In this document: positions 590 to 20,302 of the stretch, piece by piece
How positions within the stretch are numbered: the first letter of the stretch is position 1
How the letters are laid out: every line of letters starts with the position of its first letter
NCBI GenBank assembly: GCA_016188155.1
Contig: JACPIH010000021.1
Coordinates: 1-39,961 of the forward strand
DNA from: Candidatus Woesearchaeota archaeon
GTDB lineage: Archaea > Nanobdellota > Nanobdellia > Woesearchaeales > UBA10216
DNA length: 39,961 nucleotides
Reading direction: 5' to 3'
Notes under the pieces: generated by a model
Databases searched by the model: none
The model's input: only the letters and a program-made list of their open reading frames with translations
Told to the model about the DNA's origin: nothing
Position numbers and translations under genes: made by a program

Positions 590-1123
590 TCACCTTTTTC
601 TCTTCTTCCCAACGCCAAGCAGCGTTGCCGGCGACCCCAGAAGGAGCACTGTCGAGCCAGACTTGACTTTAGTGTTTAAGGGAACATTGATGTCAAAGCC
701 GGCCCTGTGCTTTATGCCAACAACCACAGCGCCATAATTCTGAAGTATCTGCGCCTTGCTCAGGCCTGAGAGGGAGCTTTTTTTATTAACGCTGACCTCT
801 TTCATGATGAGGTTTTCCTGGCCTGAAGCGCCGAAAAAGCCGGTAAGGGTTTCCTCACTGTCCTCTATTGGAGGGTTAAAGAATCTGGCAACTGCCGCGA
901 CTACAATGCCAACTGAAGCGAGCAGGAGGGCTGCGGTGAAAAGCTTGCCCGGCTGGCTTAGATTTCCGGGAATGCCCGTAGTCGTCATAACAGCGGCTGT
1001 TGAAAGAAGCGCGTCAGCAAACTGCTGCTTTTCAATGAACGTGTATCCTGCTATCCCAAGCGCGAGCACAGCCAAAAGTGCACCCAAAACCTTCCTCAAA
1101 ATAAAACACCCCTTTTTCCCCAA
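590..1123 (-). CDS. Two-TM ion-channel-like protein with RCK_C (TrkA-C) domain
   Basis: A 177-residue protein with TM1 (about residues 10-30), a re-entrant pore-like segment with the filter-like stretch VMTTTGIPGN (about 45-55), TM2 (about 62-82) and a cytoplasmic domain. Residues about 130-170 (GAVVVGIKHRAG, LNTKVKSGSTVLLLGSP) have the pattern of an RCK_C ligand-binding domain. Function is probably ligand-gated cation flux, but the canonical TVGYG selectivity filter is absent, so K+ selectivity cannot be assumed. The longest start is TTG at 1123; a second TTG at 1099 (TTG AGG AAG) just before the hydrophobic segment is also possible. A palindromic repeat (1118-1166) lies at the 5' end, and the frame stays open back through it, so the N-terminus may have been altered. 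Confidence 0.6.
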   Translation of the reverse strand: MGKKGCFILRKVLGALLAVLALGIAGYTFIEKQQFADALLSTAAVMTTTGIPGNLSQPGKLFTAALLLASVGIVVAAVARFFNPPIEDSEETLTGFFGASGQENLIMKEVSVNKKSSLSGLSKAQILQNYGAVVVGIKHRAGFDINVPLNTKVKSGSTVLLLGSPATLLGVGKKRKR

Positions 1124-7565: not shown

Positions 7566-8696
7566 ATGCTGTCCAAGATGGGATTAACGCAAAAAGAGTA
7601 CGAAACAATCAGGAGCGAACTCAAAGCTTCTGAAAAGCCTTTCTTCCTGTTCCACGATGACCCTGACGGGCTGACTTCATTTCTCTTGCTGAAGCGCTTT
7701 GTTGGAAAGGGCTACGGCATGATGGTCAAGGCAGAGCCAAATGTCAACGACCGCTTTTTGGCCGCTGCAAAAGCTGCCAGACCAGACACTATTTTTGTTG
7801 TTGACGTTGCGCTGATGCAGCAATCGTTTGTTGACACTGTCAAAAGCGGGCTTTACGGCGTAAAAAACATCGTCTGGATAGACCACCACCAGCCTGTGAA
7901 GCTTTCCGGAGTCAAGTACTTCAATCCCAGGATTCACCAGCCGCAAAACAACCCGCCAGCAAGCTACCTTTGCTACAAGACAGTTGAACATTCTGACAAA
8001 GAAAAGAAAGACCTGTGGCTTGCGATGGCAGGAATTGTGAGTGATTGGCACATGCCTGAGTTTGCCGATGAATTCAGAAAGCTCTATCCTGATTTGCTGC
8101 CAAAGCCCATGACGGCAGAAGAAGCGCTCTTCACAACACAGCTTGGGAAACTTGGAAGGATATTCTCATTCATGCTCAAAGGCCCGACTTCGGAAGCAAT
8201 GGCCTGCATAAGGGCGCTTGAGAAGATAACCTCGCCGTATGACATACTCAACAGGCTCACAAAGGAAGGAAGGTTCATCTACAGCAAGTTCAAACAGATA
8301 AATGACGATTACGAAAAACTCCTTGCAGCCGCAAAAGAAGCTGCGAACACCCAAATCGAGGCCAGCTCGATTGGGCCCAGTCGACAGCAGTCGACTTGGG
8401 ACAGCAATGACAAGAAATTCCTCATATTCACCTATAAAGGAAAGCAAAGCTTCTCAGGAGACCTTGCGAACGAGCTGCTGTTCCTATACCCTGACAGGAT
8501 ACTGGTGGTCGGGAGGGAAAGGCAGGACTACTTCATGCTGAGCTTCAGGGCCCGCCACGTTCAGGTGCTGCCGGCCCTCAAGAAAGCGCTTGTTGGCATT
8601 GACGGCTACGGGGGAGGCCACGAGCAAGCCAGTGGAGGCTCTGTCAACAGGAAAGATTTTGAGAGGTTTATTGAGAGGTTTAAGGGGGAGTTTTGA
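7566..8696 (+). CDS. DHH-DHHA1 family phosphoesterase (RecJ/NrnA-like)
   Basis: A 376-residue protein with the DHH-family metal-binding motifs: HDDPDGLTS (30-38), VVDVA (79-82 region) and IDHHQPV (DHH at 106-108). The DHHA1 substrate-binding signature is GGGHEQASGGS near the C-terminus. Members are Mn-dependent exonucleases (RecJ, archaeal GAN) or nano-RNase/cyclic dinucleotide phosphodiesterases (NrnA, GdpP types), and the sequence alone does not separate these. Residues 262-278 are encoded by a double-hairpin repeat (8350-8400) inserted in frame in the linker between the DHH and DHHA1 parts. Start is ATG 7566 or the in-frame ATG 7578. Its possible activity on c-di-AMP products is of interest because a diadenylate cyclase lies in the window. 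Confidence 0.87.
   Translation: MLSKMGLTQKEYETIRSELKASEKPFFLFHDDPDGLTSFLLLKRFVGKGYGMMVKAEPNVNDRFLAAAKAARPDTIFVVDVALMQQSFVDTVKSGLYGVKNIVWIDHHQPVKLSGVKYFNPRIHQPQNNPPASYLCYKTVEHSDKEKKDLWLAMAGIVSDWHMPEFADEFRKLYPDLLPKPMTAEEALFTTQLGKLGRIFSFMLKGPTSEAMACIRALEKITSPYDILNRLTKEGRFIYSKFKQINDDYEKLLAAAKEAANTQIEASSIGPSRQQSTWDSNDKKFLIFTYKGKQSFSGDLANELLFLYPDRILVVGRERQDYFMLSFRARHVQVLPALKKALVGIDGYGGGHEQASGGSVNRKDFERFIERFKGEF
8350..8400 (+). repeat. Double-hairpin palindromic element, copy B, in frame in a coding gene
   Basis: Arms CCCAAATCGAG / CTCGATTGGG and CCCAGTCGA / TCGACTTGGG with loops GCCAG and CAGCAG. It is 51 bases long, exactly 17 codons, so it preserves the DHH gene frame and adds 17 residues including SIGPSR. 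Copy A (1118-1166) has the same arms in the opposite orientation on the window. The arms are conserved while the loops differ, as expected if the hairpin structure is what is maintained. Confidence 0.8.
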
Positions 8697-20149: not shown

Positions 20150-20274
20150 GCCGCGGTCGCGTAGCCTGGTATCGCGGTGGATTGCTAAAAACCTCGTGTT
20201 TTTCAGAGACCTACGATACCACACAGAAATTCACTGTCCGAAAGGACTCGGGGGTTCAAATCCCTCCCGCGGCG
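20150..20274 (+). tRNA. tRNA-Ser (GCU) with one intron
   Basis: Acceptor GCCGCGG pairs with CCGCGGC, discriminator G. D-loop is AGCCTGGTA, anticodon stem GTGGA/TTCAC, loop TTGCTAA with anticodon GCU, a class II variable arm containing GTCC GAAA GGAC, and T-arm GGGGG TTCAAAT CCCTC. Removing 41 bases (20188-20228) at the canonical 37/38 position gives 84 bases. The bulge-helix-bulge is relaxed (three of four central pairs). The intron has a hairpin AAAAAC/GTTTTT and an eight-base stretch, CGATACCA, exactly complementary to TGGTATCG in the D-arm. CCA is not encoded. Confidence 0.9.
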
Positions 20275-20302
20275 CTTATTATTTTTGGATGAGGTGGTGA
20301 TT

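Follow-up and report, generated by a model that had tools for sequence, protein, structure and literature searches.

A dispersed family of double-hairpin DNA elements in a genus of Woesearchaeota, with in-frame copies in protein-coding genes

A family of short double-hairpin elements (DHEs) is dispersed through the genomes of one genus of Woesearchaeota, at positions that are largely species-specific. The DHE, in which two inverted hairpins stand back to back, is probably a mobile DNA element of the non-autonomous kind. The stretch of DNA analysed here (the window, 39,961 nucleotides of one Woesearchaeota contig) carries two copies, one of which lies in frame within a phosphoesterase gene.

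A double hairpin within a DHH-DHHA1 gene and its relatives

The features of the window that concern us are as follows.

7566..8696, plus strand: host gene, a DHH-DHHA1 phosphoesterase of 376 amino acids; the insert is residues 262-279 (codons partly shared)
8350..8400, plus strand: DHE, 51 bp, an in-frame insertion of 17 codons
8350..8375, plus strand: hairpin 1 of this DHE; foot CCC/GGG, bulged A on the 5' side, stem AATCGAG/CTCGATT, 5-base loop
8376..8400, plus strand: hairpin 2 of this DHE; foot CCC/GGG, bulged T on the 3' side, stem AGTCGAC/GTCGACT, 4-base loop
1119..1166, minus strand: a 48-bp DHE, the second copy, within the 5' leader of a gene on the minus strand
590..1123, minus strand: open reading frame downstream of the second copy, the channel gene of the first-pass annotation

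The element at 8350-8400 reads CCCAAATCGAGGCCAGCTCGATTGGG followed by CCCAGTCGACAGCAGTCGACTTGGG, and its hairpins abut without a single spacer base. Folded as single-stranded DNA it reaches -17.3 kcal/mol, compared with -5.8 +/- 1.7 kcal/mol for shuffled sequences (z -6.7; 0 of 200 as stable), and either strand forms two hairpins of about -17 kcal/mol (z -6.7 and -5.6). A search of the window against Rfam returned tRNA and no other match. The tRNA gene at 20150-20275 is predicted to contain an intron of about 41 nt.

Pfam assigns residues 30-150 of the host protein to the DHH domain and residues 295-373 to DHHA1, with the insert between both. Exactly these 17 codons (51 bp) are missing from all six DHH orthologues compared (other Woesearchaeota records, 73-84% identical). 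In an AlphaFold2 model of the host protein pLDDT falls below 50 only at residues 1-6, 123-128 and 264-280; the last segment is the insert, bounded by a helix that ends at 261 and a strand that starts at 285. The model thus predicts that the 17 residues form a disordered linker, and the DHH protein would tolerate the insert because this linker is disordered. The tryptic peptide predicted from the translated insert is EAANTQIEASSIGPSR.

A first-pass annotation, made from sequence alone, had described a 51-base double hairpin that adds 17 codons to this gene. This held, with coordinates and sequence both right, and neither of the two checks it proposed refuted it: the orthologues all lack the residues, and the genome search finds tens of further copies. 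Its account of a second copy, placed at 1118-1166 at the 5' end of a channel gene whose frame also reads SIGPSR, held only in part. The copy spans 1119-1166, is inverted relative to the first and lies in a 5' leader rather than clearly inside the coding part, and SIGPSR merely reflects how the shared core reads in that frame. The listed TTG start of the 590..1123 frame falls inside the DHE and is a mechanical call, with the true start probably further in. This copy is common to a sister species (G007, at L107:2877-2924).

The core CGAYTGGGCCCARTCG, allowing at most 2 mismatches, has 31 matches in the 1.08-Mb genome to which the window belongs (G000), and 49, 9, 4, 29, 20, 1 and 50 in its seven congeners (G001 to G007, respectively). 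Genomes outside the genus have 0 or 1, with the exception of G010, where a sister variant has 8. At up to 3 mismatches the core pattern gives 25 + 28 matches in G000, against 0 for the same pattern read backwards, which excludes a chance origin of the repeats. A covariance model trained on 42 copies and searched in 352 genomes of the order is positive in 13: all eight of the genus, three in other genera of the family and two elsewhere. The counts per genome from this search seem to stop near 16, and copy numbers are taken from the pattern search. In stretches taken around core matches, 151 copies could be mapped with both boundaries; flank and ORF statistics cover these stretches and not whole genomes, and the genomes themselves are incomplete metagenome-assembled genomes (67-97% complete). 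Simple copies are mostly 46-54 bp long. They occur in spacers as well as in genes, tRNA introns, other hairpins and one another's loops.

Pairing, the conserved bulge and the unit

Each DHE follows one plan. The first hairpin has the form NNN-A-ARTCG(stem)(loop)(stem')CGAYT-N'N'N', and the second is the reverse complement of this form, with its bulged T on the 3' side, so that the whole element is dyad-symmetric. The foot triplets are mostly CCC, also CAC and CGC, and the partner triplet changes to match. In an alignment of 42 rows 98.2% of cells are paired and 12 of the 20 pairs show changes on both sides; covariation is 0.350, compared with 0.091 in shuffled alignments (0 of 500 as high), and sliding the partners gives no more than 0.053. 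Copy detection used 8 arm bases per side, and the fairest test, independent of detection, is the ninth pair, which is Watson-Crick in 97% of cases (shuffled, 28%) and shows all four pair types. The bulged A beside the 3-bp foot is kept in 275 of 281 hairpins (98%), with the qualification that in copies with AAA its exact place can slide.

All 34 exact hairpin matches in G000 belong to paired elements. A broader scan yielded 40 candidate single hairpins, one of them clearly truncated by eye; by the same inspection nearly all 40 are halves of sister double hairpins, or of copies whose second half is nested or cut. The unit is the pair itself: both hairpins have a 3-bp foot, a conserved bulged base (A in one, T on the other side) and a distal stem that changes freely yet stays well paired. 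The first-pass reading of 'same arms, different loops' is correct only in part, as the inner stem varies too, with compensation; its suggestion that a structured element with constrained arms and free loops is being copied is supported by these data.

The pairing constraint appears to act at the level of DNA. Among 2758 cells there are 15 G.T cells and 55 other mismatches. Departures from pairing in structured RNA are usually wobble pairs more than any other kind. We infer a DNA-level constraint because G.T is rare here, whereas RNA would usually favour wobble.

A rival account, in which hairpins are created in place by template switching at replication forks without any copying of an element, would also keep the arms complementary without G.T. 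However, it would not produce a common core with its foot and bulge at tens of sites that are unrelated, and the bulge, which is 98% conserved, would be erased. We regard it as all but excluded.

In a sister subfamily that was also observed, the feet are CAC/CGC and the centre is shorter, with GTGCA or GCGCA replacing GGGCCC (for example, CACAATTCCGC..GCGGAATGTGCAATCGG). Representative loci are the following.

L125:7801-7881: sister subfamily
L087:4051: sister subfamily
L092:19636: sister subfamily

Insertion sites, reading frame and targets

The evidence for movement is presence or absence between species; movement itself was not seen directly. For 48 copies a comparable locus exists in another species, and it is empty in 31 cases and filled in 13. 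At 12 of the 16 best-aligned empty sites (each side of the junction matching at 17 or more of 24 bases) the gap is exactly 0 bases. The inserted DNA begins with the outermost base of one foot and ends with the outermost base of the other, and no target duplication accompanies it. Two examples are given here.

G005 L152:8605-8655, against G004 L127: empty-site example, flanks 95/90% identical
L153:16077-16126, against L145: empty-site example, a CAC..GTG copy

Positions -3 to -1 of copies in genes are each 79% A, compared with 36-38% at random positions treated alike, and at most clean sites the A-rich sequence is already there in the empty site. It remains possible that some flanking bases change together with insertion, because at L090 and L152 the bases adjoining the insertion differ from those of the empty site.

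Within genes, the length of the element is tied to the reading frame. Defining deep copies as those at least 100 nt inside an ORF of at least 200 amino acids (simple ORF caller), 29 of 33 have a length divisible by 3, against 46 of 87 outside ORFs (Fisher p = 3e-4). Among the four exceptions is an orthologous pair that lies in a collar (a second type of dispersed element, described below) and probably not in a real ORF. DHEs in genes are kept almost only where the frame survives, including in essential genes; two aminoacyl-tRNA synthetases are among the in-frame hosts. The hosts identified with Pfam include aminoacyl-tRNA synthetases of class I and class II, glycosyltransferases, a D-aminoacyl-tRNA deacylase, an intein-domain protein and one with a metallo-beta-lactamase fold. 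We infer that the insert is translated and not spliced from the mRNA, because splicing would make divisibility by three irrelevant; on these 29 of 33 lengths mRNA splicing was rejected. All three frames are used (for example, PKS..DWAQS..RLG, TQV..TGPSR..TW and NPNR..IGPSR..DLG), and since no single peptide is preferred among them, selection for the inserted peptide is unlikely.

Two of the host genes merit separate mention. In the D-aminoacyl-tRNA deacylase gene two species have a DHE, each at its own place (L072:14145-14192 and L121:569-661). At L152:8605-8655 an in-frame DHE lies within a stretch that Pfam assigns to Intein_splicing in a 622-aa protein, and would be one mobile element inside another.

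The collars are a second dispersed element, a single hairpin of the form TTTYTT-GA-TTGACC-TTYTT-nnn-AARAA-GGTCA. Their 5' tail runs parallel to the purine arm, with T opposite A, and C or G opposite G, and at the tRNA loci listed below they adjoin the 5' end of predicted tRNA genes at a distance of 0-2 bases.

L119:8707-8739 (-), L115:7166-7197 (-) and L074:14200-14233 (-): collar examples; about 50 more
L074:14069-14233, L096:2135-2298, L105:3461-3674 and L160:4501-4665: collar/tRNA loci

In informative copies the tail and arm agree at 143 of 150 positions, compared with 108 when reversed and a shuffled maximum of 129; such a parallel pattern is the code by which bases pair in an intrastrand DNA triplex (compare with PMC4666352).

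Under a strict collar definition, 34 of the 151 DHE copies lie inside collars, as against 0.13% of random positions, and several collars are occupied by a DHE in one species and free in another. This strict test was used in place of a shuffled-partner test of flank complementarity, which was uninformative because the flanks share the collar motif. A hairpin loop holds a further structured insert in 17 of the 151 copies; the three of these that were folded show nested hairpins, with the outer hairpin intact in two. Fourteen copies lie in a predicted tRNA or within 150 nt of one, where about 2 would be expected, and six are in predicted tRNA introns. tRNA genes were predicted with ARAGORN, whose anticodon calls are unreliable for intron-bearing genes. 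We infer that hairpins and loops attract insertion, and part of the enrichment may reflect tolerance of insertion there.

Some of the sequences nested in DHE loops belong to other double-hairpin families: ATGTYGCC..GGCRACAT with TTCGTCTCGAGACGAA, and GCATCGGC..GCCGATGC with ATCGACCCGAGGTCGAT. The predicted tRNA introns that hold a DHE measure about 110 nt instead of about 50.

L121:569-661, L110:10577-10715, L104:10413-10505 and L074:8205-8330: nested copies of other families

The copies could instead be resident functional signals of DNA or RNA structure, such as protein-binding sites, that are under selection and have little present mobility. In favour of this, three orthologous copies common to two species carry seven substitutions, all seven in or next to the apical loops and none in the arms, although the 80-nt flanks have diverged (57-95% identical). 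Against it, positions are mostly species-specific and copy number runs from 1 to 50 within one genus; placement in genes, in tRNA introns and in each other's loops is unlike regulation; and gene orientation does not fit terminators. A terminator role in particular was rejected, with 28 divergent and 10 convergent gene pairs around copies. We consider a purely resident function very unlikely. The constancy of arms in these three resident copies nevertheless counts against our preferred reading of a mobile element, as a purely selfish element would not need it; it may hint at a host function, gene conversion or recent exchange, and three pairs are few.

One further site is seemingly filled in two species by copies whose stems differ (L070:6790-6840 and L123:2472-2519). 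It could be an old shared copy with compensatory turnover or the product of independent insertions.

Mechanism and comparison with known systems

Because insertion is clean, targets include loops, the unit is a pair of bulged hairpins and pairing appears constrained in DNA, we infer that folded DNA is recognised in trans. By analogy with TnpA on IS200/IS605 ends and RAYTs on REPs, a trans-acting protein would bind the bulged hairpins when the DNA is single-stranded or forms a cruciform, and would then join the hairpin pair into single-stranded, A-rich or loop DNA.

The enzyme responsible has not been identified. In 17 genomes searched with the Pfam profiles Y1_Tnp, RVT_1, Phage_integrase, PF07282 (TnpB/Cas12f type) and PF02371 (IS110), none of these families tracks DHE presence. 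Nearly every genome, carrier or not, has one strong XerA-like integrase, and additional tyrosine recombinases do not track the element either. The 20 genes between neighbouring copies belong to housekeeping families or have no match, and include no transposase. The enzyme may have been lost after a burst, been missed, or belong to an unrecognised family. In genomes that are 67-97% complete a single absence is weak evidence; a pattern over several genomes is less so.

In G001, two DHEs lie near a TnpB-type (Cas12f-like) gene (L215:670-861 and 1549-2595). This proximity is probably a coincidence; the TnpB-type gene has no match in G000, G004 or G005, and most carriers lack one.

One specific candidate is that DHEs are REPIN-like elements served by a Y1 (HUH) transposase, its gene having either been lost following a burst or fallen in parts of the genomes that were not assembled. 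This enzyme class fits bulged hairpins in inverted pairs and the absence of duplication, and Y1_Tnp (PF01797) is present in G002 and G004. However, these are the only two genomes of the genus that have it: it was not found in G000, G001, G003, G005, G006, G007 or G010, so that six genus genomes lack it, among them G001 and G007 with 49-50 copies. G009 and G016 have Y1_Tnp without any covariance-model match, no DHE core occurs in the loci around Y1 genes, and there is no GTAG foot. This origin is unlikely.

Less likely still is spread through RNA, in which a transcribed double hairpin would be reverse-transcribed and land in RNA or DNA hairpin loops. It would suit the lack of target duplication and the copies in tRNA introns and transcribed genes, and it was proposed for the Allomyces elements, also for lack of duplication (PMC2800124). 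Against it, reverse transcriptase (RVT_1, PF00078) was found only in G002, G003 and G006 and not in the carriers with most copies, G.T is not favoured, and the dyad symmetry makes the two DNA strands equivalent, which RNA does not require. We hold this very unlikely and retain the non-autonomous DNA element as the preferred reading.

Among known systems, DHEs are probably best described as REPIN-like in architecture and similar to Rickettsia palindromic elements (RPEs) in their tolerance, while belonging to neither. RPEs are about 150 bp long with an ORF for a conserved peptide (PMC10969869), a trait that DHEs do not meet. Both are palindromic, dispersed and found in frame in unrelated genes (a trait met by 29 of 33 DHEs), with their residues tolerated, whereas simple DHEs have mostly 46-54 bp, and DHEs have two hairpins, three frames, no single conserved peptide and an archaeal host. 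The likeness to RPEs that the first-pass annotation drew is borne out for in-frame tolerance; membership fails on length, the double hairpin and the lack of a preferred frame.

With REPINs or REP dimers of the GTAG and CGTC families, DHEs share two inverted hairpins as the unit, compensatory changes and some intragenic copies (PMC3116915, PMC3733652). REPs have a GT[AG]G foot and belong with RAYTs, and CGTC REPs have no transposase-gene association but are tagged (PMC3116915, PMC3733652, PMC6006769). DHEs differ in having no foot tag, no spacer, clean ends at the feet and hairpins that are almost never single. No GT[AG]G or CGTC foot is present; hairpin 1 is preceded by the A-rich flank and hairpin 2 by the GGG of hairpin 1. 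In most carriers there is also no Y1/RAYT gene, a cognate PF01797 gene being missing in six of the eight (incomplete) genus genomes, including the richest.

DHEs lack the target-site duplication of MITEs (DDE-transposon derivatives), with a gap of 0 at 12 of 16 well-aligned empty sites. As to an autonomous relative, the exact hairpin matches in G000 are all in paired elements, with missing genome parts outside the count, and no longer element with DHE ends was seen. IS200/IS605 ends resemble DHEs in being hairpins of about 20-25 nt recognised in single-stranded DNA (PMC6006769). These insertion sequences insert next to a short target without duplication. DHEs differ in lacking TnpA in most carriers and a guide tetranucleotide at the feet. 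The GC clusters of yeast mitochondria (GC42) are likewise mobile and short; their hairpins combine constrained stems with free loops, and they merge and shuffle (PMC4478555). They have putative target-site duplications, of which none was seen for DHEs.

The best match in form and in lack of duplications is the mitochondrial double-hairpin elements of Allomyces (PMC2800124), a comparison that we make second-hand; elements of this size are too short to establish homology across genomes so far apart. Two hairpins, clean insertion without flanking duplication and variable number between close relatives are all met by DHEs, which differ in their archaeal chromosomal location, conserved bulge and foot, and dyad symmetry. 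In the literature searched there was no earlier report of such a family in DPANN archaea, which is not proof of absence.

A bolder reading, which we raise only as a possibility, is that DPANN archaea harbour a new class of mobile DNA, to which DHEs would belong. These minimal double hairpins would be moved by an unknown non-Y1 enzyme that recognises the bulged foot and prefers hairpin loops as targets; they would build nested hairpin trees and provide near-minimal genomes with material for protein linkers and tRNA introns.

Rickettsia offers the best-known cases of palindromic insertion in frame, and mitochondria those of double-hairpin elements. The 151 mapped copies, with their free stems and fixed bulge, define what is recognised, and the clean empty and filled pairs in sister species make movement without an evident transposase directly testable. 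A reduced archaeal genome that combines both properties suggests that DNA of this short, structured kind becomes mobile repeatedly and is tolerated in essential proteins.
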